Shown here one piece after another: positions 27,166 through 63,028 of a stretch of 64,000 nucleotides of DNA. Position 1 is the first letter of the stretch. The number at the start of each line of letters is the position of its first letter. Location of the stretch: assembly GCA_021463865.1 (NCBI GenBank), contig JAJTXY010000021.1, positions 1 to 64,000 on the forward strand, in the 5' to 3' direction. This stretch comes from Anaerolineae bacterium (GTDB lineage Bacteria; Chloroflexota; Anaerolineae; Aggregatilineales; J027). The position numbers and the translations under genes were made by a program. The notes beneath the pieces were generated by a model. That model was given only the letters and a program-made list of their open reading frames with translations. It ran no database searches and was not told where the DNA came from.

Positions 27166-27176
27166 GGATCATGGTT

Positions 27177-27548: not shown

Positions 27549-27562
27549 GCGAGGCACGAACA

Positions 27563-42216: not shown

Positions 42217-42573
42217 TTCCTGTACACGACTGACCAACTCACGTGGGAGAACCGGTTTTTGTAGATAAAGATCGGCTCCCGCATCAAGGCTAGCCCGTTG
42301 CGTGTGAGAATCGCCCAACGCCGAGAGCATCATGACGGGGGTGGTATGGGTATCGGGCCATGTGCGCAGTTCGCGGCAAAGCTCAATGCCATTCATCCCC
42401 GGCATCATCACATCTAAAATGAATAGGTCGGGTTTGATGTTGCGCATCAAATCTAAGGCATCTAGGGCATTGGTGGCTTTCCAAACCGTGAAGCCCTGAC
42501 GCTTGAGCATGGTGCCAAAAATTTCCAAAAGCGATGGTTCATCATCTACTAACAAAATCTGCTTCTCTGACAT
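42190..42573 (-). CDS. stand-alone receiver-domain response regulator
   Basis: A 127-residue CheY-like protein: acidic pair D-D-E, phospho-acceptor Asp in I-L-D-V-M-M-P-G-M-N-G, Ser in M-L-S-A, and Lys in L-Q-K-P. No output domain. AGGAGGG about nine bases before ATG 42573 supports the start. The gene ends inside the 3' end of the ABC exporter on the other strand. No kinase is adjacent; hybrid kinases elsewhere may phosphorylate it. Confidence 0.92.
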   Translation of the reverse strand: MSEKQILLVDDEPSLLEIFGTMLKRQGFTVWKATNALDALDLMRNIKPDLFILDVMMPGMNGIELCRELRTWPDTHTTPVMMLSALGDSHTQRASLDAGADLYLQKPVLPRELVSRVQELVGELMPH

Positions 42574-42700
42574 GCCGCCAGCCCTCCTGAACAGCGATGG
42601 CATCCTCTTGAGGCTGTTTAGTCTTGGGGATGTTACGGTTTGTTACAATCCCCGCCGACTTTCTAGCATAAATGAATTCACCTTTAAAGGGCTAGGGACT

Positions 42701-45843: not shown

Positions 45844-48033
45844 ATGGCTCGAAATGGACACCGGCACATTCTATTTGTAGATGATGATGCCGATATACGA
45901 GAAGTAGTCGAAAGCCGGTTAGAGCTTGCGGGAATTAGTGTAACCACTGCTGAAGATGGCATAGATGCGCTTCATCATTTGGAGACCGGCCTTTTCCCAG
46001 ATATCATTATTTCCGACATCCAGATGCCCAACATGGATGGTTTTGCTTTCTTTAGCACGGTTCGCCAGAATGACGAATGGCTTGAAATTCCGTTTGTGGG
46101 CCTGACCGAAGACATGGACGGCACAATTGCACGGCGGGCACGCATTTTGGGCATGACCGATTTTTTGCGGAAACCGTTTGACAGCGATGAATTGTTAGAG
46201 ACTATCTATAGCAAAACCAAAGATAAGTCGGATGGGGATGCTGATAATGGACGTGTTTCAACCCAGCCTGTTACACAAGCCTTGAGCCGTCCAGAATCCA
46301 CCCGTCTTGAGGGACGTTCGGATTATTCACGGTTCGACAATGCCCCGGTTGTGGTGGATGATTCACCCAGCATGTCGCGGCAAATGGTCATGGCAACCCC
46401 GAAACTTCCTATTTCCACCAGTGCAGCAACTTCCGCCTCGGCAGGAGCAGAACTTAAATCCTATTTTCGGGTGCTCCTCTGGTATAAATGGGTTATTATC
46501 ATTTGTACGGTTGTGGCGGTTGTTTTGTCGTTTGTTGCCAGTATGCTGATTACGCCTAAATATTCAGCGAGTGCCACCTTGCGTGTTGCTTCGGCGTCCG
46601 GTGGGGTGGTGGACTATGGTTCACTGGCACTGTCTTCACGCTTGATGAACACCTACCGTGAAATTGCGACCAGTGGCCCGGTTATTGATGAACTCAATGA
46701 GCGTCTGGGTACGGAAGTTGCCCCCGCTATTTCAGTGGATTCCATTGTCGAAACTGAGTTGTTTACCATTACTGCAACCGATGCTGATCCCGAAATCGCC
46801 AAAGATGCCGCCAACATCATGGCCGAAATCATGGTTGAACGCAGTTTGGAACTGTACGGTGGGACAACCGAAACCTATCGGCAGTACCTTGAAGACCAAC
46901 TGCAAGAGGCCGAAGATAACTATCAGCAGGCGGTACGGGCTTATGAAATCGCCATTGAGGGAGCACAGACCGATCAGGAAGCAACTAATCCTGAAGGTGG
47001 CATAACCCAATCCGCTTCGTTGGTCACGGCTAAACTTGATATTTTGCAGAAGCGGGTCGAGCTTTTCCAACAAATATATCAAGATCGGCTCAACCGTTAC
47101 GAAAACGCGCTGGTGAGCGAACAACTGCGGGCCAACGCTATCAGTATTGTTGAACCCGCCTATCTACCAACAGCGCCGTCCTCACCCAAGAAGATGTTCA
47201 ATGCTATTTTGGGTTTTGGTGCGGGATTGGTGGGTGGAGTTGGCTTGGCTTTCTTACTCGAAACCTTTAAGAATGCCTTCCGCACGATTGAGGATGTTCA
47301 AAATGTTACCAGTCTGCCCATTTTGGCTCAAGTACCGAATCGCTCTGGCGGGCCATTGAGCCTACTGCGTCGTCGCCGTCGTGAGTTGTTCCTTACCCAG
47401 AAATCTAAACCCTCATTCTTTGAACCCTATCATCGGCTGCGTGTAACGCTGCTCGGCTCTCGATCCATCTCGAAAGGCGATGTCATTCTGCTCGCCAGTG
47501 CCGAACCGGGGGCCGGTAAGTCCACCACGACGGGCAATCTTGGTGTGGCAATGGCGGAAACAGGCAACCGTGTCATTTTGATTGATGCCGACTTCCCCCG
47601 TCATGGGTTGACTCGTATGTTTAACCAAGTGGGCAAACTGGGCTTGGGTGAGGTCTTATTGGGTCAGCAAAGCCTTGCAGAAACTATCCAAGATACCCAA
47701 TGGCCCACCCTCGGATTTTTGCCTGCTGGCGCTGTAGCGGATGAAATGACGGGCCGACTGTCGCCTGAAACACTTGAGGAAGTGCTGGCACAGTTGCGCC
47801 AACTCTATGACTATATCGTGATTGATTCACCCGCCTTGCTTTCCATTGCTGATGCAACTGTTATTGCGAGGCAGGCCGATGCGGTGGTGATGGTTGTCTC
47901 CATTCGACATTCGCAACCCAGCGAACTCCGTATGGCTTTGCAGCAGTTGGGTGATGTGAATGCCAAGACTGTTGGGTTGGTCATCAATCGCGCCCCCAAG
48001 ACCCGTGTCTACAGTTATTACGCTCGCCGATAA
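45844..48033 (+). CDS. receiver-Wzz-BY-kinase fusion protein
   Basis: A 729-residue protein controlling polysaccharide chain length and export. Residues 8-125 are a CheY-like receiver (acidic D13-D15, phospho-Asp58 in S-D-I-Q-M-P, Lys110). A Ser/Pro-rich linker (130-200) leads to the first membrane helix (about 213-237). The Wzz domain (238-450) has a coiled region and the pre-helix P-T-A-P-S-S-P motif. The second helix is about 452-472. The BY-kinase (540-715) has Walker A G-A-G-K559-S-T, Walker A' I-D-A-D, Walker B I-V-I-D-S-P and a C-terminal Tyr cluster (Y723, Y725, Y726). Both helices place receiver and kinase in the cytosol. The fusion is the first gene of a locus that ends beyond the window. 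Confidence 0.95.
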   Translation: MARNGHRHILFVDDDADIREVVESRLELAGISVTTAEDGIDALHHLETGLFPDIIISDIQMPNMDGFAFFSTVRQNDEWLEIPFVGLTEDMDGTIARRARILGMTDFLRKPFDSDELLETIYSKTKDKSDGDADNGRVSTQPVTQALSRPESTRLEGRSDYSRFDNAPVVVDDSPSMSRQMVMATPKLPISTSAATSASAGAELKSYFRVLLWYKWVIIICTVVAVVLSFVASMLITPKYSASATLRVASASGGVVDYGSLALSSRLMNTYREIATSGPVIDELNERLGTEVAPAISVDSIVETELFTITATDADPEIAKDAANIMAEIMVERSLELYGGTTETYRQYLEDQLQEAEDNYQQAVRAYEIAIEGAQTDQEATNPEGGITQSASLVTAKLDILQKRVELFQQIYQDRLNRYENALVSEQLRANAISIVEPAYLPTAPSSPKKMFNAILGFGAGLVGGVGLAFLLETFKNAFRTIEDVQNVTSLPILAQVPNRSGGPLSLLRRRRRELFLTQKSKPSFFEPYHRLRVTLLGSRSISKGDVILLASAEPGAGKSTTTGNLGVAMAETGNRVILIDADFPRHGLTRMFNQVGKLGLGEVLLGQQSLAETIQDTQWPTLGFLPAGAVADEMTGRLSPETLEEVLAQLRQLYDYIVIDSPALLSIADATVIARQADAVVMVVSIRHSQPSELRMALQQLGDVNAKTVGLVINRAPKTRVYSYYARR

Positions 48034-48091: not shown

Positions 48092-49303
48092 ATGTCCGGC
48101 AGCCGTCCGCTGCGTGTCTTGATGATTGTTGAAAACTGCTCGTACCCCTTTGATGTGCGGGTGCGGCATGAAGCTGAAACTTTAGCCGCTGCTGGCTATC
48201 AAGTGTGTGTAATTGCGCCACGAGGCAAAAACGAAAAATGGCGGGATACCCTCAATGGTGTCTATGCCGTGCGCTTCCCAGCACCTCCCAATCGTGGGGG
48301 GATGTTAGGGTATTTGATGGAATTTGGGTATGCCACCCTTGCGGTGACGTGGCTGGCACTGTGGCTGACCCTGCGAGGTAAAGTGGATGTGATTCATGTA
48401 CATAATCCACCGGATACGTTGTGGTTTGCGGCGCTGATTCCTAAATTATTGGGCAAGAAATTTATCTACGATCATCATGACCTATCGCCTGAATTGTTCC
48501 TCTCCAAGTATGGCGAAGACGCCAAAGAAAATAAGTTGTATCGCGTGTTGCTGTGGCTGGAAAAACGTTCGTGCCGCATGGCGAATTGGGTGGTGGAGGT
48601 CAACGAGTCCTACAAGAAGGGTGATATTGAACGTAATGGTGTCAAACCAGAGCGTGTCCATGTCGTCCGCAATGGCCCTAACCTAAAACGGATGCGCCTT
48701 GTCCCAATTGATGAGCAACTCCGCGCCAAAGCCGAAACGTTGATCGCCTATGTTGGCAATATTTCCTCGCAAGATGGCCTCGACCATTTGTTGGGGGCGG
48801 TGTATCACCTTGAGCGTGATCTCGGCTATAAGGATTGGTACTGCAACGTCATTGGCAAGGCCGATAATCTCAATGAATTGCAGCAGATTGCCCAAGAATT
48901 AGGGATTAGTGAGCGGGTGCGCTTTACGGGTTTTATCTCTGATGATGAAATGCTGCGTATCCTGTCTACATCTGATATTTGCATTGTGCCCGACCCCGAT
49001 AATCCGTTGAACAATAAATCCACCATGAACAAAGTCATGGAATATATGGCATTGGGCAAGCCAATGGTCGCTTATGACTTGGTGGAACACAAGTTTTCAG
49101 CACAGGACGCGGCCCTTTATGCGATTCCCAACGACAAAATGGATATGGCCCGCCAAATTTTGAAGCTCGTCCAAGACCCTGCGTTGCGTGCCCAAATGGG
49201 AGAAGCAGGTCGTCAACGGGTCGAAACTCAATTGAAATGGGAGTATTCGGCTGAAAAACTGCTGGCGCTCTATGCCGAAGTTGCGAAGGAAACGCTGGGT
49301 TGA
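48092..49303 (+). CDS. GT4-family glycosyltransferase
   Basis: A 403-residue GT-B retaining glycosyltransferase. The N-terminal domain begins M-I-V-E-N-C-S-Y-P-F-D-V-R-V-R-H-E-A, a pattern typical of capsule and exopolysaccharide loci, and a hydrophobic patch around residues 75-95 may touch the membrane. The C-terminal domain has the E-Y-M-A-L-G-K-P motif with the E-x7-E-like acidic residues that hold the donor nucleotide sugar. AAAGGAGA precedes the ATG. It is the first enzyme gene after the attenuator and probably adds an early sugar to the lipid-linked unit; donor and linkage are unknown. Confidence 0.92.
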   Translation: MSGSRPLRVLMIVENCSYPFDVRVRHEAETLAAAGYQVCVIAPRGKNEKWRDTLNGVYAVRFPAPPNRGGMLGYLMEFGYATLAVTWLALWLTLRGKVDVIHVHNPPDTLWFAALIPKLLGKKFIYDHHDLSPELFLSKYGEDAKENKLYRVLLWLEKRSCRMANWVVEVNESYKKGDIERNGVKPERVHVVRNGPNLKRMRLVPIDEQLRAKAETLIAYVGNISSQDGLDHLLGAVYHLERDLGYKDWYCNVIGKADNLNELQQIAQELGISERVRFTGFISDDEMLRILSTSDICIVPDPDNPLNNKSTMNKVMEYMALGKPMVAYDLVEHKFSAQDAALYAIPNDKMDMARQILKLVQDPALRAQMGEAGRQRVETQLKWEYSAEKLLALYAEVAKETLG

Positions 49304-49319
49304 TAGGTAATAGTACGCG

Positions 49320-50912
49320 ATGAGCAGCCTTCCGAACTCGAAAACCTTTGCACGCCCCGGATTCTTCTATTATCTGATCCGGCCTTGGCGTGTGATAGAC
49401 TTGCCCGGCTTTTGGCCTTTTATGGAATTGGTCATCGCGGCAGGGATAGGGTTGTGCATTGCGGTTTTGATTATCTTCAGCACCCACTTTATCGGCAATC
49501 CAAAGGTCGTCGTGGGGGCGATTGGCGGCATTTTTTATGTCTTTATGATTCGCCGCTGGCCCTATTTGGGAATCTTGTCGGTCGTGGCGATTACAAGCGG
49601 GCTGATCAGTTGGGAATGGCTGCCACTAATCCCTATTGGCCCATTCAGTGCCCATATTCCCGATGTGATGTTGGGCCTGCTTCTTTTGCTGCTGATATTG
49701 CGTGCCACAGCCCAAAAGGATTTTCATTTTTATCAGACCCCATTAGATATTCCCTTAATATTGTTTATCATGGCATTACTTTTTTCGATGTTTAATGGCG
49801 TCATCTTTTTAGACCTATCGCCCAACCCTGTAATACGGGTATCTCGACCTATTTTTTACTGGTTAATCTTTTTTCCGATTACGCAATTTATCACGGACAG
49901 GCAGACATTACGCAATTTTCTGTATGGCCTTATGGGATTGGCGCTGGTTCTCTCGGCTGGCCTGATATTCCCCAACCGCTTTTTGCCTCTTATGCCTGTC
50001 AGCGCAGCGGATTTGACAACTGCTGGCCGCGAATTCTCCGGTGTGACTCGCCTTTATTATGGCGGCGAACGTTATCTCTACATGATTATCCCGGCCATGA
50101 TCGGCACTCTGCTGATTTATCGTAAGGAGCGTTGGCTGCGGTTCATTGTGCTGGCAGGGGCGATATTTTGGCTGTACCGGAGTTATCAACGTAATTATTG
50201 GGCCACCACGATTGTCAACATTGGCTTAATGATCGCCTTGTTCAGCACGTTTAGTCGAACGCGCTATCGGACGATTACTCGTCTTGCGACTGCCGCTCCG
50301 CTACTCATTATTTTGTTTATAGGGGTCTATTTCGCATTTCCGGCGCAGGTGGGGAGCCAGATTGACATTTATGCTGATCGGATGGGCAGTATTTTTCAGA
50401 CCGCCTCCAATGAGCGAGCCGATAGCAGCCTTGAATGGCGCTCGATGGAAAATTACTATGCCCGGCAAAGTATCAATGAACATTTGTGGTTTGGCATTGG
50501 GCCATCGGGAACTTATCGCCCACCGTTTGAAATTGAAGTGCTTGCTAACGAGTATCCGATTAACTGGTATGTCCACAACAGCTACTTGTGGATCACCGTC
50601 ATGATGGGACTCTCTGGCTTAATCCCGTTTTTGTGGCTAAGTATTCAATATGTTTTGCGTACTTTGTGGCGTTGGACGGAACTGCGGGATGAAGAATTTA
50701 TCGGCGTCTATATCGGCTTTGGTACGGGTTACTTGGGCATGATGATTAGCAACATCGTCGCGCCAAATTTTGTGCAATCGTGGGCACTTATCATCTATCC
50801 GGTAGCGATGGGTGTCAACGAAGTGATTTATCGGCTGAATAAACAAGAAAAAGAACAAGCCGAAAAACAACAAACAATCTCGCTTGCCCGTCGTATGCGT
50901 GTGGCAAGATAA
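49320..50912 (+). CDS. Wzy/O-antigen-ligase-like polymerase
   Basis: A 530-residue membrane protein with about eleven to twelve hydrophobic segments. The WaaL/Wzy_C domain is marked by a long extracytoplasmic loop (about residues 335-420) with conserved R-x-x-x-W and H-N-S-Y-L-W-I motifs. Such proteins join repeat units outside the membrane or ligate chains to a carrier. Placed between a glycosyltransferase and a flippase gene, polymerase is the more likely role. The C-terminal tail is charged and cytoplasmic. 16 bases separate it from the previous gene. Confidence 0.9.
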   Translation: MSSLPNSKTFARPGFFYYLIRPWRVIDLPGFWPFMELVIAAGIGLCIAVLIIFSTHFIGNPKVVVGAIGGIFYVFMIRRWPYLGILSVVAITSGLISWEWLPLIPIGPFSAHIPDVMLGLLLLLLILRATAQKDFHFYQTPLDIPLILFIMALLFSMFNGVIFLDLSPNPVIRVSRPIFYWLIFFPITQFITDRQTLRNFLYGLMGLALVLSAGLIFPNRFLPLMPVSAADLTTAGREFSGVTRLYYGGERYLYMIIPAMIGTLLIYRKERWLRFIVLAGAIFWLYRSYQRNYWATTIVNIGLMIALFSTFSRTRYRTITRLATAAPLLIILFIGVYFAFPAQVGSQIDIYADRMGSIFQTASNERADSSLEWRSMENYYARQSINEHLWFGIGPSGTYRPPFEIEVLANEYPINWYVHNSYLWITVMMGLSGLIPFLWLSIQYVLRTLWRWTELRDEEFIGVYIGFGTGYLGMMISNIVAPNFVQSWALIIYPVAMGVNEVIYRLNKQEKEQAEKQQTISLARRMRVAR

Positions 50913-50929: not shown

Positions 50930-52489
50930 ATGCAAAGGCGCGTTATTAAAGACCTGCTGGCCTATTTGCCATCCAAAATTTTGCCAGCACTGACGGCATT
51001 TATCACGGTGCCAATTTTTACTCGTCTATTTGCCCCAGACCAATATGGCAACTATAACCTTGCAGTTGGGGTCTCGGAGTTTTTGATTGCTGGGACGGTC
51101 ACAGGATTTGCCGCTGCCGCCGTGCGATTTTATGCGGCCTATGAACTCAAAGAAAAACTTTCCGACTATTTTGGGACGATTTTTTCTACCACCGCCGTAC
51201 TGACCATTGTTGGGGGGATTATCGCCGCCGTGCTGATGGTCGCCGCCAAAACCGCCGATTTGGTAGATGATGACCTATACTCCCTATTATGGGTGGCGCT
51301 GCTGCTCTTTATCGTCAGCAGTTGGTACACCGTTCTGATGCACATTGTTCGGGCAGAGGAAAAAAGCCGCTGGTACACCGCCTTTGAGCTATCTATGCGT
51401 TACGGGATGGTCATTATTGCATGGATAATGGCAACCCAGTTCAATGTTGGGGTTGGCTCGATCTTATGGGGACAGGTCATTATCACTATTGTGCTGATGA
51501 TTCCCCTCTTTTGGGTTACATCAAAAGGCATAGCCATACGATTTAGTAAATTAACCCGAACTGATTTTGCGCCGTTTTGGGCCTATGCTTTGCCCCTTAC
51601 CATTGGTAATTTGGCGTTTTGGGGATTGCGCTTGGCTGACCGCTACATCGTCAAAATTTTCCATGATAGCTATGAGGTCGGTGTCTATCTCGTTTCCTAC
51701 AACATTTCGGCCCGCAGTATTGACCTGCTGGTCGGTCTATTTTTGATTGTCCCCGGCCCTATTATGATGAGGACATGGGAAGAAAAAGGCCGTGCCGAAA
51801 CTGAAGAAACACTGACCACTTTTACTCGGATGTTCCTAATTTTGGTCATGCCAGCGGTGGTTGGCTTGGCAGTAACTGCACGTCTATTGGTGGGATTTTT
51901 GGCTGATCCTGAATATTTTGATGGATACCGTGCGACCTTTTTTGTGGCGGCATCTAGCGCTCTATTTGGTTTAGGGCAGTTGGGCAGCTATGGTATCCTG
52001 CTGGGTAAAAAGACGAATATTTTGGCCCGTAATCAATTTATTGCGGTTGCAGTCAGCCTTGCACTTAACATTGCTTTAGTTCCTTGGTTGGGTTTTATGG
52101 GCGCGGCGATGGCCGGGACAATTGCTTTTGCTTTCCAGACCTTTTTGCAGGCCTATTATTCCGCGAAATTCCTGACATGGCGCTGGCCTATGCAAACGTT
52201 GTGGCGAGTTGTTGTGGCGACGGTGTTGATGGGGATTGTCGCAGGTCTCATTGTCGAGTTTGGGCCAGCAGATGGTACTAAAGAACAGGTACTGACGTTT
52301 CTGATCGCGGTTGGGGCTGGGGCAGTTGCCTACGGAATCACCATTATTGGCCTCGGTGAAATCTCCATTGCCCAATTACGCACCATTCGTAGCGAGCATG
52401 GGCCGGATGCGCTGATTGCCTCTGTGCCAGAGGATGCGGAATCAGAATCAACGATCCCACCAATGCCCGAAACCACCGTTGAAATATAG
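50930..52489 (+). CDS. Wzx-type oligosaccharide flippase
   Basis: A 519-residue MOP-superfamily protein with twelve to fourteen hydrophobic helices. The N-terminus K-D-L-L-A-Y-L-P-S-K-I-L-P-A and the F-T-R-L-F-A-P-D-Q-Y-G-N-Y segment are typical of the RfbX/Wzx group. It would turn undecaprenyl-linked repeat units to the outer face of the membrane for Wzy. The C-terminus extends about 40 acidic residues past the last helix. It begins 17 bases after the polymerase gene. Confidence 0.92.
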   Translation: MQRRVIKDLLAYLPSKILPALTAFITVPIFTRLFAPDQYGNYNLAVGVSEFLIAGTVTGFAAAAVRFYAAYELKEKLSDYFGTIFSTTAVLTIVGGIIAAVLMVAAKTADLVDDDLYSLLWVALLLFIVSSWYTVLMHIVRAEEKSRWYTAFELSMRYGMVIIAWIMATQFNVGVGSILWGQVIITIVLMIPLFWVTSKGIAIRFSKLTRTDFAPFWAYALPLTIGNLAFWGLRLADRYIVKIFHDSYEVGVYLVSYNISARSIDLLVGLFLIVPGPIMMRTWEEKGRAETEETLTTFTRMFLILVMPAVVGLAVTARLLVGFLADPEYFDGYRATFFVAASSALFGLGQLGSYGILLGKKTNILARNQFIAVAVSLALNIALVPWLGFMGAAMAGTIAFAFQTFLQAYYSAKFLTWRWPMQTLWRVVVATVLMGIVAGLIVEFGPADGTKEQVLTFLIAVGAGAVAYGITIIGLGEISIAQLRTIRSEHGPDALIASVPEDAESESTIPPMPETTVEI

Positions 52490-52496
52490 GGGTTCC

Positions 52497-54539
52497 ATGC
52501 CATCTATCAAACATTATGCTGACCGCTTCCGTGAACTTGGCGTGCGGGGTGCGGTTGAAAAAGTGGGGGGACGAGTCAGCCGCGCCGGAAAACTTTGGGG
52601 TGAGACGGCCTATTGGCGTTGGAAAGCCAACCAAACCATGTCCGATGCCGATTTGCTGGCCGAGGTGAAGGGCGATTGGCAAACCTTCGGGACATTTATC
52701 ACACAACTCGCCTCCCGACCTGACACCTCATTTTTGCTGCCGCATGAGTCGCGCTTAGAGACGGTTCAGATACTACGCGAGCGTTATCCCGAACATGTCT
52801 CGGCGACTTTGGCACTGGCGGATGCGGCCTGTCAAAACGAATTTAATTTATTCGGGCAGGTGGTCAAATTCCCCGATGAAATCAACTGGCATCGTGACCC
52901 TGTGACGGGTTATGAATGGCCCGTGCTATATATTGTGCGGATGGAAGAATTATTGTGGTCGGTTGAACGCAGTGCCGATTTGAAGCCGATTTGGGAACTC
53001 AACCGTCATCAGCATTTTATCGCGTTGGGGATGGCGTATTGGTTGACTGAAGATATTCGTTATTATGAGGCATTTGCGAAACAGACCGAAAGCTGGATTC
53101 AAGCCAATCCGGTGCTGCATGGCATCAATTGGTTCAGCAGCCTTGAGTTGGGGATTCGGCTCATCGCGTGGGGGGTGGCCTTCCAATTTTTCCGCCCACT
53201 GGCTGATTTCCGGGAAAAATTAGCGCCGGCCTTCCTAAAAAGTCTCTATCAGCAGGCCGATGTTCTCAGCACCCATCTTACCCATTGGGAGGCCGTGCCC
53301 AACAATCACTTGATTGGCGAGGCGGCGGGGCTAGCCATTACGGCGGCGCTGTTCCCTGAATTTAAGGAATCGGCGCAGTGGCTTGAGATTGGTCTCCGGC
53401 ATATGAACGAACAAATGATAGCCCAAACGCATCCTAGCGGGGCGAACAAGGAGCAGGGCACGGGGTATCATCAATTTGTGGCGGAATTTGTGCAACCGTT
53501 GGTGCTGCTGGCGAAACGCGGCCTCATTCCTCCGCAGCCTGTTTTGGAAGATACACTCCATCGGATGATTGATTATGTGCAATATTGCAAAACCCCGGCA
53601 GGCACAATGCAAAATTGGGGTGATCAAGATGATGGACGGGCAGTCGGGTTAAGCCTTGCCAAGCCGTTTTGGGATTTCCGTCATCTTTTGGCGTTTGGGG
53701 CGGCCTATTATCAGCGACCTGATTGGAAATTTGGCTCTGGACGGTTTGATGAAGAATCCTTCTGGCTGTTGGGTAAAGATGGCTTGGAGACTTGGGAAAA
53801 ATTAGAGGCGCAGCCCCCTGCCGAAATCTCCAAAGCCTTTCCTGATGCAGGCCACTATATCATCCGCGATGATTGGTCAGCGACCAGTGACATACTGTAT
53901 TTTCGCTGTGGCCCGTATGGATTGGGTGGAGAGGGCGAATCGGCCCATGCCCATTGTGATATGCTCAGTCCGATTTTGTGGATTGGTGGGCGGCCTGTTT
54001 TGGTGGATGCGGGTACGTATCTTTATCATGGCCCATCGCGCGACCACTATCGAACGACGGCCTCGCATAATACGCTGATGATTGATGGCAAGGAACAGGC
54101 GGTCCCTCGCACCGATTTTTCGTGGGAGCAGGTGCCGCATGGGGAATGTTTGGCATGGGAGGCAGGAAAGCGTGTCGTCGGCGCGATGCAAACTCGGGCA
54201 GGCGTAGGCCATCAGCGGGAAATCAATCATCCGGCAGCGGGTGTTTGGGAAATCAGCGACACCTTACAGGCGGATTCAACGACGCATGAAGTAAAGTGGT
54301 TTTATCATTTTGCACCCGACCTGACTGTACAGCAGTTGGATGGACGGGTGTTGGTAAAAAATGATGCAGCTAGTTTTTCAATGGATGTTATCCCACCTGC
54401 TGAGGTGAAGTTGAGTATCGAGGTGGGTGAATTTTCATCGAATTATGGGCGAAAACAGCCCAATCAAATCCTTATCGCAACTTGGCAGGGCGCAGTCTCA
54501 GAAATGCGCTTCGTCTGGAAATTTGAACGCAATTCATAA
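52497..54539 (+). CDS. heparinase II/III-family polysaccharide lyase
   Basis: A 680-residue protein with an alpha/alpha toroid domain (about residues 100-400) and a C-terminal beta-sandwich (about residues 440-650) of the heparinase II/III kind. Motifs include N-N-H-L-I-G-E (toroid, His/Asn site), G-T-G-Y-H-Q and, in the sandwich, A-H-A-H-C-D with His near residue 483 and H-N-T-L-M-I-D-G. The fold includes enzymes that cut uronate-containing chains, such as heparin and alginate lyases. No signal peptide is evident, which is common for members coded inside capsule loci. It may trim or proofread the polymer. ATG 52497 is 8 bases after the flippase stop with AGGGG nearby. Confidence 0.9.
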   Translation: MPSIKHYADRFRELGVRGAVEKVGGRVSRAGKLWGETAYWRWKANQTMSDADLLAEVKGDWQTFGTFITQLASRPDTSFLLPHESRLETVQILRERYPEHVSATLALADAACQNEFNLFGQVVKFPDEINWHRDPVTGYEWPVLYIVRMEELLWSVERSADLKPIWELNRHQHFIALGMAYWLTEDIRYYEAFAKQTESWIQANPVLHGINWFSSLELGIRLIAWGVAFQFFRPLADFREKLAPAFLKSLYQQADVLSTHLTHWEAVPNNHLIGEAAGLAITAALFPEFKESAQWLEIGLRHMNEQMIAQTHPSGANKEQGTGYHQFVAEFVQPLVLLAKRGLIPPQPVLEDTLHRMIDYVQYCKTPAGTMQNWGDQDDGRAVGLSLAKPFWDFRHLLAFGAAYYQRPDWKFGSGRFDEESFWLLGKDGLETWEKLEAQPPAEISKAFPDAGHYIIRDDWSATSDILYFRCGPYGLGGEGESAHAHCDMLSPILWIGGRPVLVDAGTYLYHGPSRDHYRTTASHNTLMIDGKEQAVPRTDFSWEQVPHGECLAWEAGKRVVGAMQTRAGVGHQREINHPAAGVWEISDTLQADSTTHEVKWFYHFAPDLTVQQLDGRVLVKNDAASFSMDVIPPAEVKLSIEVGEFSSNYGRKQPNQILIATWQGAVSEMRFVWKFERNS

Positions 54540-54556: not shown

Positions 54557-55870
54557 ATGAAAGTCAGTATTTTTGGTCTTGGGTATGTGGGGACCGTTTC
54601 GGCGGCGTGTTTGGCCGGGCAAGGGCACGATGTGTTGGGGGTAGATGTAAGTGCCGACAAGGTCAATCAGATTAACAATAAACAAAGCCCGATTGTCGAA
54701 CCCGGCCTTGAACCCCTGATTTCAAAGGGTGTGGAAACTGGTAAATTGAAGGCGACACAAGATACTGCTGCTGCTGTTCGTCATGGGGAAGTATTGCTTA
54801 TCTGCGTCGGGACGCCCTCGCACGCGAATGGTGGTTTGGGATTGACCTATGTGGAACGGGTCGCGCAAGACATCGGTCAGGCGTTGGCAACCGTCAACGA
54901 TTATAAAGTCGTTTCGCTGCGCAGTACGGTGCTGCCGGGTACATTTACTGAGACCCTGAAGCCCATATTGGAACAATATTCCGGCAAAAAGGCCGGGGTA
55001 GATTTTGGCGTCACAGTGAACCCTGAATTCTTGCGCGAAGGTAGCGCGATTGAGGACTTTATCAATCCGCCGTATACGCTGATTGGGGCGGAGGATGAAA
55101 GATCGGGTCAAACACTTGCTCATTTGTACGACGGGATTGATGCCCCTCTGTTTTTCAGCGATCCCGATACCGCCAATATGGTCAAATATGCCTGTAACGC
55201 TTTCCATGCGGTCAAGGTAACGTTTGCCAACGAAATTGGACGGTTGTCAAAGGTGGTCGGAGTAGACAGTACCCGCGTCATGGAGATTTTTACACAGGAT
55301 ACCAAGCTGAATATTTCGCCGCGCTATCTACGTCCCGGTTTTGCGTTCGGGGGGTCGTGTCTGCCGAAAGATTTACGGGCGATTAACTACCTTGCTCGGC
55401 ACACCGATGTGGACATTCCCATGCTGGAAGGCGTGATGGAAAGTAACGTAGAGCATATCGAGTTTGCGCTGGATATGGTGGTGCGAAGTGGTAAGAAATC
55501 CGTGACGCTGGTCGGCCTCAGCTTCAAACCTCACACCGATGATCTGCGCGAAAGTCCGATGGTGGCGTTGGCGGAAACGCTGCTTGGCAAGGGTTACAAA
55601 GTAACAATCTATGATGCTAATGTCAATCTGGCGCGGCTGGTCGGCGGTAATCGTTCGTATATTGAACAAACCATCCCGCATATCGCCTCACTCATGTGCC
55701 ATTCATTGGAAGAAGCGGTGGATGGGGCGGATGTCATTATTGCCTCACACGGCGTCAATGATGATCTGGTGGCGCTGGCACGGGAAGATCAATTGGTGGT
55801 TGACCTGTCGCGTAATTCCAGTAATGCTCATTGGATGGGCAAGTCCGCGTATGAAGGGCTTTGCTGGTAA
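54557..55870 (+). CDS. algD: GDP-mannose 6-dehydrogenase, AlgD-like
   Basis: Oxidises GDP-mannose twice to GDP-mannuronate using NAD. The 437-residue protein has the N-terminal Rossmann G-L-G-Y-V-G-T motif, the central dimerisation helix, and catalytic Cys268 in F-G-G-S-C-L-P-K-D, the same residue number as the catalytic Cys of Pseudomonas AlgD. The segments F-H-A-V-K-V-T-F-A-N-E-I-G and L-S-F-K-P-H-T-D-D-L-R-E-S-P and the final E-G-L-C-W resemble AlgD more than UDP-glucose dehydrogenases. It supplies a uronic acid donor for the polymer. UDP-sugar specificity cannot be ruled out from sequence alone. Confidence 0.9.
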   Translation: MKVSIFGLGYVGTVSAACLAGQGHDVLGVDVSADKVNQINNKQSPIVEPGLEPLISKGVETGKLKATQDTAAAVRHGEVLLICVGTPSHANGGLGLTYVERVAQDIGQALATVNDYKVVSLRSTVLPGTFTETLKPILEQYSGKKAGVDFGVTVNPEFLREGSAIEDFINPPYTLIGAEDERSGQTLAHLYDGIDAPLFFSDPDTANMVKYACNAFHAVKVTFANEIGRLSKVVGVDSTRVMEIFTQDTKLNISPRYLRPGFAFGGSCLPKDLRAINYLARHTDVDIPMLEGVMESNVEHIEFALDMVVRSGKKSVTLVGLSFKPHTDDLRESPMVALAETLLGKGYKVTIYDANVNLARLVGGNRSYIEQTIPHIASLMCHSLEEAVDGADVIIASHGVNDDLVALAREDQLVVDLSRNSSNAHWMGKSAYEGLCW

Positions 55871-55876
55871 GGGCCT

Positions 55877-57232
55877 ATGACCAATCCAAGCGAACAACGT
55901 CCGCGTAAACTGCTGGTGATCGCCTATATCTTTCCGCCGTTTTTTTCGGTGGGGGGGTCTATCCGGGTGGTCAAGTTTCTAAAATACCTGCCCAATCTCG
56001 GTTGGAAACCCTATGTGTTGACCGTAGACGACAGCCGCGAATATAAGAGTCTGCGTCGAGAGGGGAGTGAAGAACTCCTCTCTGACCTGCCATCCGACGT
56101 GGTGGTGTGTCGGGCGGTGGCGGGTGAGGCTTCGTCATCATTGCTGGAAAAAGGACGGGCGGCCCGCGAGAAAAACAAGTTGCTCAAGTTGGTCATCAAT
56201 ACTCTGCGTGATATTCGAGACTGGGTGACACGCTGGTTGCTCATTCCTGATGAAAATATCACGTGGCTGCCGTTTGCGGTGCGACAGGGCCGCCAGATCA
56301 TTAAAGAAAATGAGATTGACGCCATTTTTGTGACCTGCCCTCCCCATTCAGCCGCTGTGATTGGCGCGGTATTAAAACGCCTGACCCGTTGTCCGCTGGT
56401 ATTGGATTTTCGGGATGATTGGGTGGATACGCCGTGGCAAGCCGAGCGCCCTGCTTTTGTACGATGGATCAATAAATGGCTAGAGCGCTTTGCCGTGAGC
56501 AGTGCCAGCAAAGTGGTTTTGGTGACGCCGGTCAGTCACGCTGCCTTTGAAAAACGCTATCCACGCCAGAAGGATAAGATGGTCTATATTCCGAATGGGG
56601 TAGACCTAGCCGATTATGCCTATCTGGATAACGCACCGCCGCCTACTTTTGATGGAAAATTTACGATTGTCCATGCCGGGTTGCTGACGGTTGCCGCTGA
56701 TTGGAATCGTGACCCGAAGGCGTTTTTTCAGGCGTTGGTCAACATCCGCCAAGCGCACCCCGAAATCGGCGAGAATATGCGGATGGTGTTTACCGGGGAA
56801 CTGCCTCCCGAATACAAAGCCTATGTCACTGAGATGGGGTTGGAGAGCATAGTCGAAGAGGCGGGGTATCTGCCACGGCCTGAGTTTGCGACCCTGCTAC
56901 GGAATGCCGATTTGCTGCTGACCATTAATTATGCCGGATTTTCAACCTTAATCCCCGGTAAAATTTATGAATATTGGGCAGTCAGCGGCCCACCCATTAT
57001 GCTGTTGAGCGAACCGGGGGCGGCCCATCAATTGATTCAGCAATATCAATTGGGCGTGGCGCTTAAACAAAACGATACGCTGAGAATTCAGCAGGCTATA
57101 TTAGACTATTATCAGCAGAGGGCGGAGGGGCATCCGGTACGCATTACCCGCGACGGTATTGATAATTTTGCCCGTGCCAAACTCGCTGAAAAATTGGCGG
57201 GAGCATTGGACGGATTGAAATTTAAATCATGA
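55877..57232 (+). CDS. GT4-like glycosyltransferase
   Basis: A 451-residue GT-B protein. The N-terminus has the pattern Y-I-F-P-P-F-F-S-V-G-G-S-I-R, typical of a group of capsule glycosyltransferases whose first loop binds the acceptor. The C-terminal Rossmann domain has G-K-I-Y-E-Y-W-A and the acidic residues that hold the donor phosphate. It begins 7 bases after the algD-like gene and probably uses GDP-mannuronate or another sugar nucleotide; which is unknown. Confidence 0.9.
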   Translation: MTNPSEQRPRKLLVIAYIFPPFFSVGGSIRVVKFLKYLPNLGWKPYVLTVDDSREYKSLRREGSEELLSDLPSDVVVCRAVAGEASSSLLEKGRAAREKNKLLKLVINTLRDIRDWVTRWLLIPDENITWLPFAVRQGRQIIKENEIDAIFVTCPPHSAAVIGAVLKRLTRCPLVLDFRDDWVDTPWQAERPAFVRWINKWLERFAVSSASKVVLVTPVSHAAFEKRYPRQKDKMVYIPNGVDLADYAYLDNAPPPTFDGKFTIVHAGLLTVAADWNRDPKAFFQALVNIRQAHPEIGENMRMVFTGELPPEYKAYVTEMGLESIVEEAGYLPRPEFATLLRNADLLLTINYAGFSTLIPGKIYEYWAVSGPPIMLLSEPGAAHQLIQQYQLGVALKQNDTLRIQQAILDYYQQRAEGHPVRITRDGIDNFARAKLAEKLAGALDGLKFKS

Positions 57233-57265
57233 GATACGTCCTTATGAATGACAGGAAGATTTTAT

Positions 57266-58024
57266 ATGCAGCTTGAAAAGAAAGTGGCTGTAATTACGGG
57301 AGCAGGGCAGGGACTTGGCCTTGCAATGGCAAAAGCCTTTGTTGCAGAAGGGGCAAAGGTTGTCGTTGCCGAATATAATGCCGAAAAGGGCAAGTCTGCG
57401 GCTGAAAGTTTGGGTGCAGGGAACGCCGTATTCGTGCATACTGATGTGCGCGATGTTCAATCGGTGGCGCGGATGGCGGAGACGGCGGTTAGCAGTTTTG
57501 GACGATTGGATATTTTGGTCAATAACGCTGGATTGTTTGGCCGTACCAAAACTGAAGATCTCTCCGAAGAGGAATGGGATCGCATGATGGATACCAATCT
57601 CAAGGGAGCGTTCTTGTGCAGCCAAGCCGCTGGACGGGTCATGATTAAACAGGGCGAGGGTGGTTGCATTATCAGTATGTCCTCGATTAACGGCATCGTC
57701 GGTTTCCCGGAAAGACTGGCCTATAATTGCAGCAAGGCTGCCATTGATGCCCTGACCCGCGTATTGGCTTCGGAGTGGGGTCAGTATAACATCCGTGTGA
57801 ATGCCATCGCGCCGGGGTATGTACGGAATGACGTGTTGGATGAACATATCGCATCGGGGTGGTTTGATGGCGCGGCGATTTTAAAACGTACCCCGCTGGC
57901 CCGCTTTATTGAGGAAGACGACATCGCCAAAGCTGCTGTCTATCTGGCGTCTCCGGCGGCCTATAACGTCAGCGGGGTGGTGCTGCCCGTTGATGGGGGT
58001 TGGGTTGCCTACGGGTATCTATAA
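57266..58024 (+). CDS. SDR-family oxidoreductase
   Basis: A 252-residue classical short-chain dehydrogenase. The coenzyme motif T-G-A-G-Q-G-L-G is at residues 12-19, N-N-A-G-L follows, and the active site is Ser in S-M-S-S with Tyr-x3-Lys in Y-N-C-S-K. The D/Y-residue pattern after the second strand suggests NAD or NADP use but cannot decide. AGGAAG eight bases before ATG 57266 sets the start. It probably alters a sugar or its precursor in the locus, for example a keto or 6-deoxy step, but a general metabolic role is also possible. Confidence 0.93.
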   Translation: MQLEKKVAVITGAGQGLGLAMAKAFVAEGAKVVVAEYNAEKGKSAAESLGAGNAVFVHTDVRDVQSVARMAETAVSSFGRLDILVNNAGLFGRTKTEDLSEEEWDRMMDTNLKGAFLCSQAAGRVMIKQGEGGCIISMSSINGIVGFPERLAYNCSKAAIDALTRVLASEWGQYNIRVNAIAPGYVRNDVLDEHIASGWFDGAAILKRTPLARFIEEDDIAKAAVYLASPAAYNVSGVVLPVDGGWVAYGYL

Positions 58025-58026
58025 AT

Positions 58027-59238
58027 ATGAGCGAAACACGCTTCCCTCTGCCCGGTAAATATTTATTTGTGGCCGGTATCAACCTGACCGTGCAGAAACT
58101 GAACAGTCCAGCCCAACGCCTGCCCTATGCCCTCGCCCCGTATGTGGAGCAACTGGATTTGGTTGGGTATGTCAATTTTTATGGCGGCCCACCAACCTCT
58201 AAGTTCAATAAATTGGCGAAGGGGGCGACCCATTTGCTGAGGGATCGGGTGAGTGTGACCCAAGAGGATAACGTGCGACGGTTGATTGCACGACGGCTGC
58301 CTCTGCCCCGTTCAGTTGATGTCAAGATGCAAAGCCGCTGGATATACCAAATCCTGAAAGGTCATTTGGCACGAAAATATGACGTGGCGATTGTGGCCCA
58401 TGCCGAAAATGCCCCACTTGCCAAACTGCTGAAGAATTCCGGTATCGCGCAGCATCTCATCTACAACGATTGGGATTATTACCCCGGCTATGTTGAAGCT
58501 GAATACCGTGATTTGGTGGCGGGTTATGAGCAACTGCATGTGGATTTGGCAGATGGGGTTGCGTCGGTAAGCCGTCCCCTGCAAGAACTGCGTACCCAGC
58601 AGGGTGCAAAGCGCACCATTGTGATTCCGAATGCCGTTGAATTTGAGAAATTTAATCGGGCGTACCAAAATCGCAAACCACACCCGCCGACCCTGATTTA
58701 TTGCGGCAGCGTGGATGCACGGTGGGGGATTGACCTAGCCATTCGTGCCCTGCCAACCCTACGCCAGCAGATTCCTGATATACGGGTAATGGTGGTTGGG
58801 GGCGGGCCAGCCGAAGAGGAATTGCAGAGCCTTGCTAAAGAAATCGGCGTGAGTGAGCAGGTCGTCTTCACCGGGGCAGTGCCCTATGAGCAATTACCGG
58901 ATATGATGGCGGAGGCCGATATTGGCTTGGCAACTTCGCGGCAGGACGAGTTTCGCAAATATGCCTCCCCGATGAAAATCACTGAGTATATGGCGGCGGG
59001 GTTGCCTGTTATCGCATCCGGTGGCGGGGAAGCCGAGCAAATGATTGAAGAGTCGCGCGGAGGGGTACATATCGAATATGACACGGATGCCCTGATACAA
59101 GCGGTGCTGTCGCTGATGCAAAATCGTACTCAATTGGAAATGATGCAGCAGGCCGCATTAGATTATGCCCACAGCCGCACATGGGACGAGATGGGCAAAC
59201 GACTTGCCTTATTTATGGCGGAGATATTGCGATCATGA
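58027..59238 (+). CDS. GT4-family glycosyltransferase
   Basis: A 403-residue GT-B glycosyltransferase. The donor domain contains Y-C-G-S-V-D-A-R-W-G-I, F-T-G-A-V-P-Y, and the E-Y-M-A-A-G-L-P-V motif. ATG 58027 lies two bases after the SDR stop. Its stop overlaps the next glycosyltransferase start by four bases, so translation of the two is likely coupled. The N-terminal acceptor domain resembles enzymes that extend lipid-linked oligosaccharides. Donor and linkage unknown. Confidence 0.92.
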   Translation: MSETRFPLPGKYLFVAGINLTVQKLNSPAQRLPYALAPYVEQLDLVGYVNFYGGPPTSKFNKLAKGATHLLRDRVSVTQEDNVRRLIARRLPLPRSVDVKMQSRWIYQILKGHLARKYDVAIVAHAENAPLAKLLKNSGIAQHLIYNDWDYYPGYVEAEYRDLVAGYEQLHVDLADGVASVSRPLQELRTQQGAKRTIVIPNAVEFEKFNRAYQNRKPHPPTLIYCGSVDARWGIDLAIRALPTLRQQIPDIRVMVVGGGPAEEELQSLAKEIGVSEQVVFTGAVPYEQLPDMMAEADIGLATSRQDEFRKYASPMKITEYMAAGLPVIASGGGEAEQMIEESRGGVHIEYDTDALIQAVLSLMQNRTQLEMMQQAALDYAHSRTWDEMGKRLALFMAEILRS

Positions 59239-60341
59239 GAATACTCTTTTTATCGGATAGGCCGCCGAGTGGGGCGAAAATGGCCGATGCCTATCAAACC
59301 CGATTGGAAGGTTTGTCACACGGTTTACAGGCGCACGGTGTCGAAACCGAATTTTTGTCGCTGCGAACCTTGCGTGTCAAAGGGCCGCATCTGTTGTTTT
59401 CGTTGAATGCCCCTGCAATTGCCCGACATGCCAAGTCGTTTGACGTGATCCATGCTGCTGGGGCGGGTTCGGCAACAGCGGCGGCGGTGGCACGTTGGTT
59501 CAACAAACATCATGTAGTATTTGACGTGCATGGCGATGAATTGATGGAGACGCGGCTGGAATGGGATAAAAAACGCTCCCTACGGTCAGGCTATCTCGTT
59601 TTTCAGAGCGCCGTTTTGACCCAATTGGCCCGTCGCATGGCGAATACGCTGCTGATGGTGTCCGGCCCATTCCAAGAACGGTATGCCAAACGCGGTGTGC
59701 CGGAATCGAAAATGATTATTGTGCGGAATGGCGTGGATACTTCGTTATTTAAACCCACCACTCTACCCAATGATGGCACAGTGCGGATTTGTTATGCGGG
59801 CAGTTTTCAGGCATGGCAGGCGGCGGATGTGTTGCAAGCGGCATTGGTCCAAAATATCCGTGATGGGGTGCATTTCCACCTTATCGGATTTGCTGAGGGT
59901 GATCAGGAACTCAAGGCTCAATTTGCCGCGAAACTGAGCGATCATGCCACGTTGGAAAATCGGATGCCGGTTGATCAACTGCCCGACAAATTAGCCCCGA
60001 TGGACGTATTGGTGATTTCACGCACGCGCCATCCGGTGATGCAAGGGGGATTGCCAAGCAAATTTGCCGAATATCTGGCGATGGGCAAGCCGCTGATTGT
60101 CACTAACGTAGATGAGACCTCCAAATTTGTGCGCGAGGCCGAGTGTGGGTTGGTGTGTGAGCCGACGGTGGAAAGTATGAGTGCTGCTATCCGTACCGCT
60201 AGTCAATGGACTGCTGAAGAACGTCAGCGTATGGGTGAAAATGCACGGCGCTTGGCGGAAACGACCTTTGATTGGAAAGTGCTTGCCAAACATTACCTAG
60301 ATGAATTGCAACCCCGCCTGAATAAAGGAGGTCACTCATGA
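59235..60341 (+). CDS. GT4-family glycosyltransferase
   Basis: A 368-residue GT-B enzyme starting M-R-I-L-F-L-S-D-R-P-P-S-G. The donor domain has Y-A-G-S-F-Q-A-W-Q-A-A-D and the E-Y-L-A-M-G-K-P motif. The ATG overlaps the previous stop (ATGA) and its own stop overlaps the next start in the same way, so three genes are likely translated as a coupled set. It has a basic patch in the first domain that may contact the membrane. Confidence 0.92.
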   Translation: MRILFLSDRPPSGAKMADAYQTRLEGLSHGLQAHGVETEFLSLRTLRVKGPHLLFSLNAPAIARHAKSFDVIHAAGAGSATAAAVARWFNKHHVVFDVHGDELMETRLEWDKKRSLRSGYLVFQSAVLTQLARRMANTLLMVSGPFQERYAKRGVPESKMIIVRNGVDTSLFKPTTLPNDGTVRICYAGSFQAWQAADVLQAALVQNIRDGVHFHLIGFAEGDQELKAQFAAKLSDHATLENRMPVDQLPDKLAPMDVLVISRTRHPVMQGGLPSKFAEYLAMGKPLIVTNVDETSKFVREAECGLVCEPTVESMSAAIRTASQWTAEERQRMGENARRLAETTFDWKVLAKHYLDELQPRLNKGGHS

Positions 60342-61888
60342 GCCGCGCTGTGATGATTCTCGCCGACCCGCGTGATATGGCCTCTTTGAATTTCGAGGGC
60401 ATCCAAGTCCCCGGCTTCGATCGGGTGATTGTACGGGTGGCGGATTTCGCCCGCCTCAAAGAAGAAGCCCCGACCATTAAGGCCGAGATTGAACGCGATA
60501 ATGTGGGGCTGGTCATCTATGCCCGTAACGACCAAGTATTTGAGCGCCATTCGATTGCTTATTGCATCCGCTATTTTCAGACAGGTTATTCTTCGTTGAG
60601 CGGGATTGATACCGAAGAAGCCTTTAGTCAGGCCCGGTCCATCATTGTGGATTTACAGGGTAAGGAAGGGATTTTTGAAGTCCCGCCGATTGCCGCCCCA
60701 ACCAAAAAAGTCGCCAGCCAAACGCAGGGCACGTTCTCGCTGATTTTTGATACCGAACAACTGGCGTGCATCAAAGTTGGCTTGCCACGTATTTTGCCCC
60801 TGCTCGATCAATATGGAGTCAAGGCGACCTTTTTCTGCACTGGCTTTGTGCAGGATGTGTATCCCAAGACCCTGCCTGTGATTGCGGAACGGGGGCACGA
60901 AATCGGCATACACGGGCCGCATCATGAATGGATGGCCGGGTTATCGGCGGATGAACAGCGCCGTCGTTTGACCGCCCATGTTGAACAATTCCGCCAGTAT
61001 TATCCGGTGGTCGGGGCGAACTTTATTTTCCGCACCGATGCTCATACGATTCCGATTTTGGTGGATTTGGGGATGCGCTATTGTACGGCGTTTGCGCTGC
61101 ATCATTACAAACCAATGGCCTATCGTCAGGTCAATACTCAGCCCGTGCCGATTGTGACAGATAGGGGCGGGATATGGATGGTGCCTGTGCCTGCTGAGAC
61201 CTATGACTGGCCGTGGTTCGGGACACGCCTCGCTATTGATTCAGCGTTAGTGCGCTCCAAACGCGAAACAGGTCAGCCGCATGTCTCAGTGTTGATGCAC
61301 CCCTTCCGAGATGGCTCTAAGATGCACCTCAAACAGTTAGAGGCGATGCTGGAATATCTGACTCAGAAGCGTCAGTTAAAAGCCGTGACACTCGAGCAGC
61401 ACATGACCGAACCTTCCCCAAGTCAAGCTGATACTCGCATTTATATGAACTATCTGCGGGTGGATGGCAGTCACCCCGACGGCTATCAGCGCGAATTTTG
61501 GTCACGTGCCGAATACTATTGGGATCGGCTGTCGGCGGTGTATCATGGCCTAAAAGCGATTGGCAAAAATCCGGCGTTGGTGGTCGAACCACAAAATATC
61601 ACCCACGCCGTCCACCCCGAAGCCCCCACCGGAGGGACGCCCATCGCGTTTGACCCGATGGCCGCTTCGCAAGATTATCCCGATGGCCCGGATTGGGAGC
61701 GCTTCTTGAAACTCTTGCGCGAGTCGGATGAGGGGGCGCAGGTTTTTTCCCCGCCAAGTGCGGAAGAACAGAAGGCATTTATCAACAAGCTCAAGAAACC
61801 ACGCCACCTACGGGATGTGACGGGTCTGCCGCCAGAGGCCGCGATTCGGGCCGTTTATAAACTCCGCAAGGGCCGCCCTTACTTCTGA
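60338..61888 (+). CDS. polysaccharide deacetylase family protein with extra C-terminal domain
   Basis: A 516-residue protein with three parts: residues 1-125 of unknown fold, a NodB-like deacetylase domain (about 130-360) and a C-terminal extension (about 375-516). The metal site is D138-T-E140 and the H192-G-P-H195-H196 group, with the usual T-F-F-C-T-G strand near residue 165. The second acidic residue is Glu where the classic TFDD motif has Asp, as in some HpPgdA-like and exosortase-linked deacetylases. It would remove N- or O-acetyl groups from the polymer. It has no signal peptide, so it may act on lipid-linked intermediates in the cytosol or have lost export. Confidence 0.85.
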   Translation: MSRAVMILADPRDMASLNFEGIQVPGFDRVIVRVADFARLKEEAPTIKAEIERDNVGLVIYARNDQVFERHSIAYCIRYFQTGYSSLSGIDTEEAFSQARSIIVDLQGKEGIFEVPPIAAPTKKVASQTQGTFSLIFDTEQLACIKVGLPRILPLLDQYGVKATFFCTGFVQDVYPKTLPVIAERGHEIGIHGPHHEWMAGLSADEQRRRLTAHVEQFRQYYPVVGANFIFRTDAHTIPILVDLGMRYCTAFALHHYKPMAYRQVNTQPVPIVTDRGGIWMVPVPAETYDWPWFGTRLAIDSALVRSKRETGQPHVSVLMHPFRDGSKMHLKQLEAMLEYLTQKRQLKAVTLEQHMTEPSPSQADTRIYMNYLRVDGSHPDGYQREFWSRAEYYWDRLSAVYHGLKAIGKNPALVVEPQNITHAVHPEAPTGGTPIAFDPMAASQDYPDGPDWERFLKLLRESDEGAQVFSPPSAEEQKAFINKLKKPRHLRDVTGLPPEAAIRAVYKLRKGRPYF

Positions 61889-61906
61889 TTGGGGCAGAGG
61901 GAAACA

Positions 61907-63028
61907 ATGGTATACAAACCACGTGTGCTGATTATCGGCCCGACCCTCAAACAAATGGGTGGGGTGGGCATGGTCAATGAAATCTTGCTGGCCTCGACAA
62001 GCCTGCGGGATGATTTTGAACTGCTGCATCTCGATACTACCCGTCCCGAAGACTCGATTGACCAAGTGGCGACGCTGGCGGTGGGCAATTTTTGGCTGTT
62101 TTTTAAGCAATGGCTTCAACTTCTGCGAATTCTCATTACCCAGCGCCCTAAAATCATGCACCAGCCGATTACGGATCGCGTCTCCTTTTATAAAGAGGGG
62201 ATATTTATGCTGACGGCGCGATTGTTTGGGGTGCGCGTCGTGGGGCATCTGCACGGCAATGCTTTTAAGCAGTTGGCGGAAAATAAACGCAAACCTGTAC
62301 GCCAAAGTGTGTGGTTAGTGATGCGCCTACCCAAAGTGGTCATCGCCCTGTCCGATGGCTGGCGCGATTATCTGCTGCAACAGGTTTCCCCTAAATTGAA
62401 AATCGTGGTAGTTGAAAATACGGTAGACGCCGATTTTGCTCAACTCGCCCATCAGCCTGTCGAAAAATCAAATCGAACAAGTTGCAAGGTGCTGTTTATG
62501 GGCAGTTTGGGAACACGCAAGGGTGTACCCGAAATCTTAAAGGCCTTGCCCATCGTGCGTGCCGAAAATCCTGCCGTTGAATTTGTAGTGCCGGGTGGAT
62601 TGGAACTCGGCGCGGAGCAGGGGTTAATTGACCAAGCCAAAAGTGAAGCATTGGCGGTGGGGGGCGTTAGTTTCCCCGGTATCGTCACGGGCCAGTCGAA
62701 ATTGGAGTTGTTTAAAGACGCCGATATTTTCCTGCTGCCTTCCCATCATGAGAATTTTCCTATCTCGGTTCTCGAAGCAATGGCATCCCGGTTGCCGCTG
62801 GTCATAACACCAGTCGGTGCTTTGCCGGAAGTCTTGCAAGATGGGATACACTGCCTATTTGTACCGGTGGGGGATGTGCAGAAAATTGCCGAGGCGGTTT
62901 TAAAGTTGTCTCAAGACCCGACCTTGCGTGACACAATGGGGGCAGCAAATTTGGCGCTGTATCAATCTCGATTCGCCCCCGAAGCCATGATGGACAAGAT
63001 CAAAACTATTTATTCGCAGCTTTTATAA
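61907..63028 (+). CDS. GT4-family glycosyltransferase
   Basis: A 373-residue GT-B glycosyltransferase with an N-terminal G-P-T-L-K-Q-M-G-G-V-G-M loop and the C-terminal motif L-P-S-H-H-E-N-F-P-I-S-V-L-E-A-M-A, whose E-x7-E pattern is the donor-binding signature of family 4. ATG 61907 is 18 bases after the deacetylase stop. The stop codon overlaps or abuts the start of the methyltransferase gene. Confidence 0.93.
   Translation: MVYKPRVLIIGPTLKQMGGVGMVNEILLASTSLRDDFELLHLDTTRPEDSIDQVATLAVGNFWLFFKQWLQLLRILITQRPKIMHQPITDRVSFYKEGIFMLTARLFGVRVVGHLHGNAFKQLAENKRKPVRQSVWLVMRLPKVVIALSDGWRDYLLQQVSPKLKIVVVENTVDADFAQLAHQPVEKSNRTSCKVLFMGSLGTRKGVPEILKALPIVRAENPAVEFVVPGGLELGAEQGLIDQAKSEALAVGGVSFPGIVTGQSKLELFKDADIFLLPSHHENFPISVLEAMASRLPLVITPVGALPEVLQDGIHCLFVPVGDVQKIAEAVLKLSQDPTLRDTMGAANLALYQSRFAPEAMMDKIKTIYSQLL

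Follow-up and report, generated by a model that had tools for sequence, protein, structure and literature searches.

Among the closest described systems is Wzc of E. coli K30 (PCP-2a; PDB 7NHR, 9EXO), in which a first transmembrane helix (TM1), the Wzz and GNVR regions, a second transmembrane helix (TM2), a BY-kinase domain and a tyrosine tail follow one another on a single chain. The dephosphorylated octamer of E. coli Wzc supports polymerisation and phosphorylation of the Tyr tail leads to its disassembly to the monomer; the Tyr-tail helix is connected with the membrane and periplasmic parts through the cytosolic helix at the N-terminus, ahead of TM1 (PMC8285477, PMC11986026). The signals that set the Wzc/BY-kinase cycle, and the post-translational regulation of chain length and export, are poorly understood. 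In M. xanthus, the single-domain response regulator EpsW, phosphorylated at D58, binds and activates the initiating PGT EpsZ and thereby controls EPS synthesis post-translationally, and small monoPGTs can bear fused receiver domains (PMC12802240).

In the window investigated here, the whole stretch of 64,000 nucleotides from contig JAJTXY010000021.1 of an Anaerolineae bacterium (order Aggregatilineales), a gene for a protein of 729 aa joins a receiver domain to a Wzz region and a BY-kinase. It occupies 45844..48033 on the + strand, with exact coordinates, strand and frame, and all features of the gene and of its operon given below lie on that strand. The receiver (residues 9-121; 45868..46206), recognised by Pfam (Response_reg, 8e-24) and in the predicted structure, contains the codons of the phospho-acceptor D58 (46015-46017), T88 (46105-46107) and K110 (46171-46173). 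An unstructured, fast-evolving linker, recognised by its pLDDT, identity and dN/dS (about residues 126-199; 46219..46440), leads to a cytosolic helix that starts at about residue 200 and precedes TM helix 1 (about 207-235; 46462..46548). The Wzz region (PF02706, 1.7e-9; residues 204-283; 46453..46692) is followed by long extracytoplasmic helices seen in the predicted secondary structure (residues 316-430; 46789..47133) and by the GNVR region (Pfam 7.6e-8; residues 401-471; 47044..47256), which runs into TM helix 2 (about 451-473). Both membrane helices were placed by hydropathy and the model. The BY-kinase P-loop domain (Pfam AAA_31, 1.4e-15; residues 547-688; 47482..47907) harbours Walker A PGAGKST (47506-47526), Walker A' LIDADFPR (47578-47601) and Walker B YIVIDSP (47812-47832). 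The degenerate heptapeptide EPYHRLR (residues 527-533; 47422..47442) stands at the ExxRxxR site of other BY-kinases, and the chain ends in the Tyr motif YSYY (Y723, Y725, Y726; 48010..48021).

All four Pfam matches exceed their curated cut-offs, as does the NCBIfam eps_fam tyrosine autokinase match over residues 544-726. Hydropathy detects two TM segments and no more, which puts both receiver and kinase on the cytosolic side. The initial annotation had described this domain order and topology from the letters and the reading frames, and Pfam, NCBIfam and hydropathy agree with it; Asp58 and Lys110, with D13, D14 and T88 beside them, and all three Walker motifs were found in place. The C-terminal Tyr cluster it had noted exists as well, but is small, consisting of three Tyr.

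Sequence searches of solved structures matched the N-terminus to NtrC, CheY and related receivers, and the C-terminal half to CapA1/CapB1, Wzc and BceF. The best PDB sequence match of the kinase was S. aureus CapA1/CapB1, with Wzc among the best, and Wzc was the top fold match among solved structures, the Foldseek search with the fusion model being headed by Wzc and CapAB. The PCP-2b systems CapA/CapB and CpsC/CpsD are split into two proteins, whereas the fusion is one chain with a receiver added. From TM1 to the tail it has the same order as Wzc, from which it differs by the N-terminal receiver and the linker of about 75 aa, by the shortness of its extracytoplasmic loop (TM helices about 215 aa apart, against 377 in Wzc, residues 51-427), by having just 3 tail Tyr and by the degenerate ExxRxxR. 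A Wzz region, a loop between two TM helices and a BY-kinase C-terminal to TM2 on the same chain, all characters of PCP-2a, were seen in the fusion, and Wzx, Wzy and glycosyltransferases are encoded alongside it. The fusion is a Wzc-type kinase, of a known class, with the receiver as the new element. By likeness to Wzc it may form an octameric ring with a Tyr-dependent assembly cycle.

In the AlphaFold model the receiver is confident, with pLDDT mostly 94-98 and strands and helices alternating five times; the linker is disordered over residues 134-199 (pLDDT <50 over most of its length), two membrane helices are present and the kinase is moderately confident. The underlying alignment had 39 rows, mostly covering the receiver, and with a pTM of 0.42 neither relative domain placement nor a receiver-kinase interface is derivable from the model. 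Of the structure and interface prediction proposed in the initial annotation, the receiver was thus obtained with confidence while the interface was unusable. Linker identity between the fused lineages is 12-18%; judged by its sequence, so long and non-conserved a linker would allow direct allostery without favouring it.

The same single frame was present in all five congeners sampled (stop-to-stop length 733-735 codons, at 87-99% identity), and a scan of contigs for the receiver motif gave a single fused relative, the congener protein L114 on JACRBG01 from a Chloroflexi groundwater MAG. Two genomes of another family in the same order, G010 and G022, encode the same architecture at 36-39% identity, as a protein of 701-704 aa in G010 and in a 794-aa frame with the receiver at residue 66 in G022. 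That an assembly or sequencing error joined two genes is practically inconceivable, as the separate assemblies of five congeners and of two genomes from another family share one frame. A frameshift or assembly fusion is therefore excluded, and the receiver, which on that reading should have been a separate gene in close relatives, is not one.

In the other genera of its own family, kinases lack a receiver or none were detected, and altogether the fusion occurs in 7 of 154 genomes of the order. No further fusions were found in samples of the class (396 genomes) and the phylum (400 genomes), nor in samples of Planctomycetota, Myxococcota, Cyanobacteriota, Acidobacteriota and Pseudomonadota. In an HMM check of ~270 BY-kinase frames from six phyla, a receiver was present only in this fused family. 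Long-frame kinases (838-1253 aa, several phyla) re-read with longer flanks had no receiver, and the N-terminal extensions of eight of them had no Pfam domain. Viral contigs gave no close relative, none of 1,783 matching plasmid records covered 80% of the fusion query, and literature searches for the receiver-Wzz-BY-kinase architecture found nothing. This rarity is that of samples in which a few candidates were scored in each genome and the best loci alone were fetched, so that a more divergent fusion could escape. The architecture search which the initial annotation had called for thus did find the fusion in other genomes, but in one clade only and by sampling. As far as the sequences go, the fusion is real, conserved, rare and functional-looking, and so far makes up one small family.

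Other additions to related proteins were met on the way. In G031, of the same order, the Wzz-BYK part of a 735-aa frame (L068:989-3193, - strand) is followed at the C-terminus by an FHA domain, which binds phosphopeptides, usually with pThr; here a kinase of this type has received another sort of regulatory module. G018, also of this order, encodes a chain of 1547 aa (L200:9914-14554, + strand) in which Wzz-BYK is combined with PMT_2 glycosyltransferase-like and F5/8 type C regions. CpaE/TadZ, a pilus protein, combines a receiver-like domain with a MinD/ParA-type P-loop ATPase related to BYK; unlike the fusion, it is without Wzz and without TM segments. A 457-aa frame in G000 (C56:76017-77006), with a receiver followed by a MinD/ParA-like P-loop region, resembles CpaE/TadZ.

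In a tree of 40 Wzz-BYK sequences the fused proteins formed one clade (SH-aLRT 100), which shows at the level of sequence that these kinases arose once. The receiver scored 84.4 bits with PF00072 against a curated cut-off of 30.2, and D13, D14, D58 and K110 were invariant in every fused homologue of the three lineages aligned. The initial annotation had made its reading depend on conservation of Asp58 and Lys110, and both are kept throughout; a decoy receiver without an active site is ruled out by the four invariant residues. The switch residue at position 88 is T in the genus, S in G022 and V in G010. Identity between the fused lineages is about 44-46% for the receiver and 44-46% for Wzz. Among congeners, the receiver evolves more slowly than any other part of the protein: between the most distant of them, G000 and G002, it has 3 non-synonymous and 52 synonymous differences (dN/dS 0.007), and the ratio is higher in Wzz (0.033), in BYK (0.052) and in the linker (0.14), although synonymous sites are near saturation in this pair and the counts weigh more than the ratios. 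Such strong purifying selection, estimated from coding sequence, argues for a working receiver.

The nearest receivers outside the fused set, at 48-52% identity, are the N-terminal receivers of soluble RR-HisKA-HATPase proteins of ~400 aa in the same order (among L081-L084 and L002-L007), and the closest receivers in its own genome are also N-terminal and of this type. The output of these hybrids is a histidine kinase, whereas that of the fusion is a membrane co-polymerase. In the simplest history, the receiver was likely recruited onto Wzz-BYK from an RR-histidine kinase by domain shuffling, which the receiver tree is too weak to prove by itself. A separate horizontal acquisition of unrelated receivers in each lineage was considered and set aside: the kinase tree gives one clade, and the receiver-only tree, in which L016 and L017 are not firmly joined to the clade of the genus, is too weak to speak either way.

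The fusion gene is the first of a polysaccharide operon in the window. It is followed, after a gap of 58 bases with a ribosome-binding site, by a GT4 glycosyltransferase (48092..49303), whose ortholog adjoins the fused gene in G022, and then by a Wzy/O-antigen ligase-like polymerase (49320..50912), a Wzx-type flippase (50930..52489) and a heparinase II/III-like protein (52416..54539). In its longest frame this last gene overlaps the flippase by 74 bases, but translation probably begins downstream of 52416; its place in the order is kept in G010. A UDP-glucose/GDP-mannose dehydrogenase (54557..55870) precedes the remainder of the cluster (55877..63753), made up of four glycosyltransferases, a short-chain dehydrogenase, a polysaccharide deacetylase and a methyltransferase. 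In each of the three lineages the fused gene stands first in the same Wzx/Wzy operon, and the subsequent gene order is kept in G010, where the first GT4 is missing, and in G022 up to the contig end. The nearest non-fused kinase relatives head different clusters.

Neither in the window nor in the stretches of G010 and G022 that were read does a histidine kinase adjoin the fusion gene. The polysaccharide cluster has no evident gene for a histidine kinase, a tyrosine phosphatase or an initiating PGT; three LMW-PTP genes are present elsewhere in the genome. A row of genes at 26833-29749 (+), about 16 kb from the fusion gene, encodes a 110-aa STAS/anti-anti-sigma-like protein together with a hybrid histidine kinase and a receiver, and is a candidate phosphodonor. 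A single-domain response regulator is encoded at 42190-42603 on the - strand, 3.2 kb upstream of the fusion gene; in G010 a 43%-identical counterpart is located ~6 kb away from the fused gene, and the corresponding stretch of G002 gave no match. The fused gene of G010 also has, immediately upstream, a divergent AAA/TPR/BTAD-type regulator (L067:12105-15266, +). The genome also contains a second polysaccharide locus (C6; L199:5784-7935, +) in which Wzz is split from a BYK-like protein; with its eroded P-loop (SPAQDNHKS), the latter is probably no active kinase.

To the observed fusion and topology, the intact and conserved phospho-acceptor, the purifying selection on the receiver, the single origin of the kinase and the stable Wzx/Wzy linkage, the following mechanism may be added. 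A histidine kinase (or phosphorelay) unlinked to the fusion gene would phosphorylate D58. The phospho-receiver, flexibly tethered to the cytosolic helix before TM1, would then alter assembly of the co-polymerase ring or phosphorylation of the Tyr tail, and polymerisation by the adjacent Wzy and export would be switched on or off post-translationally. The receiver is attached at the N-terminal end that matches the coupling helix of Wzc. EpsW likewise is a receiver with its phospho-acceptor at Asp58 that controls EPS synthesis after translation, but it is a separate protein targeting a PGT, whereas the receiver of the fusion sits on the co-polymerase/kinase itself. Given the coupling by the N-terminal helix of Wzc and the precedent of EpsW, we judge gating by an unlinked histidine kinase through D58 the most likely reading: there are good grounds to expect that this Wzc-type (PCP-2a) autokinase has its ring assembly or its Tyr-phosphorylation cycle, and hence export, gated by D58 phosphorylation. 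A histidine kinase could thus probably control the export machine directly via the fused receiver; that D58 is phosphorylated in vivo, which way control runs and where it acts are what we infer. Evidence against gating is that no histidine kinase adjoins the gene in the stretches read, that the linker is long and non-conserved, that the fused lineages do not all retain the classical Thr/Ser switch, T88 being V in G010, and that the D28-K701 contact of Wzc is not evident, W213 aligning with D28 in a weak segment.

The kinase domain offers a different view of how the receiver might act. The ExxRxxR motif of BY-kinases is part of the ring-forming interface, and it was intact in none of the three fused lineages (EPYHRLR in the genus, NAFQGLQ and DAYRQLG) against 71 of 92 non-fused kinases. 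The A' Arg, shifted by one in the genus (DADFPR) and missing in G022, was canonically placed in one of three against 85 of 92. The Tyr tails are down to 3, 2 and 2 residues (Y723-S-Y725-Y726 here, YSY in G022 and YY only in G010), and BYK, with 30-36% identity between the fused lineages, is the least conserved globular domain. These eroded hallmarks suggest that control may have shifted in part from Tyr to Asp, with the catalytic residues persisting. Taken to its end, association of phosphorylated receivers and not the tyrosine cycle would drive ring assembly, the export machine would be the receiver's output domain, and the BY-kinase would be weakened and turning vestigial, or mainly a structural ATPase; so complete a transfer of control seems to us quite unlikely. 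K559 (the Walker A Lys), D581, D583 and D661 are invariant across the fused lineages, the BYK is under purifying selection (dN/dS 0.05), and the fused proteins, as one clade, amount to one observation. The hallmarks are degenerate also in the non-fused close relatives L020, L022, L024 and L037, and ExxRxxR deviates in 21 of the 92 non-fused kinases, so that EPYHRLR does not exclude membership of the BY-kinases; for these reasons the degenerate motif was rejected as proof of lost kinase control.

The receiver may instead serve for docking or localisation, recruiting a kinase, a cytosolic glycosyltransferase or PGT, or a polar scaffold, in which case phosphorylation would set the place and partners of the complex and not the kinase cycle. 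The linker is long, disordered and fast-evolving, as a tether would be, EpsW is a receiver that acts by binding an EPS enzyme, and the receiver sequence is nearly frozen within the genus. Still, we hold docking to be unlikely, since a pure docking domain has no need of the fully conserved phospho-site and a partner protein for the receiver was not found. It is most improbable that the receiver is an evolutionary hitch-hiker of a chance gene fusion, with little function: the fusion is known from one clade only, but the receiver has the lowest dN/dS in the protein and its phospho-site is invariant over a deep divergence, in two families.

With gating through D58 as the preferred reading, a phospho-acceptor and a co-polymerase/kinase on one chain would tie environmental sensing to export without transcription, and a single substitution of D58 would probe this link. 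In EpsW/EpsZ the regulator is a protein of its own and targets the first enzyme; here the principle would extend to the polymerisation and export step, with the regulator built in. If it is true that the receiver controls assembly, it would be a natural handle to tune exopolysaccharide production.
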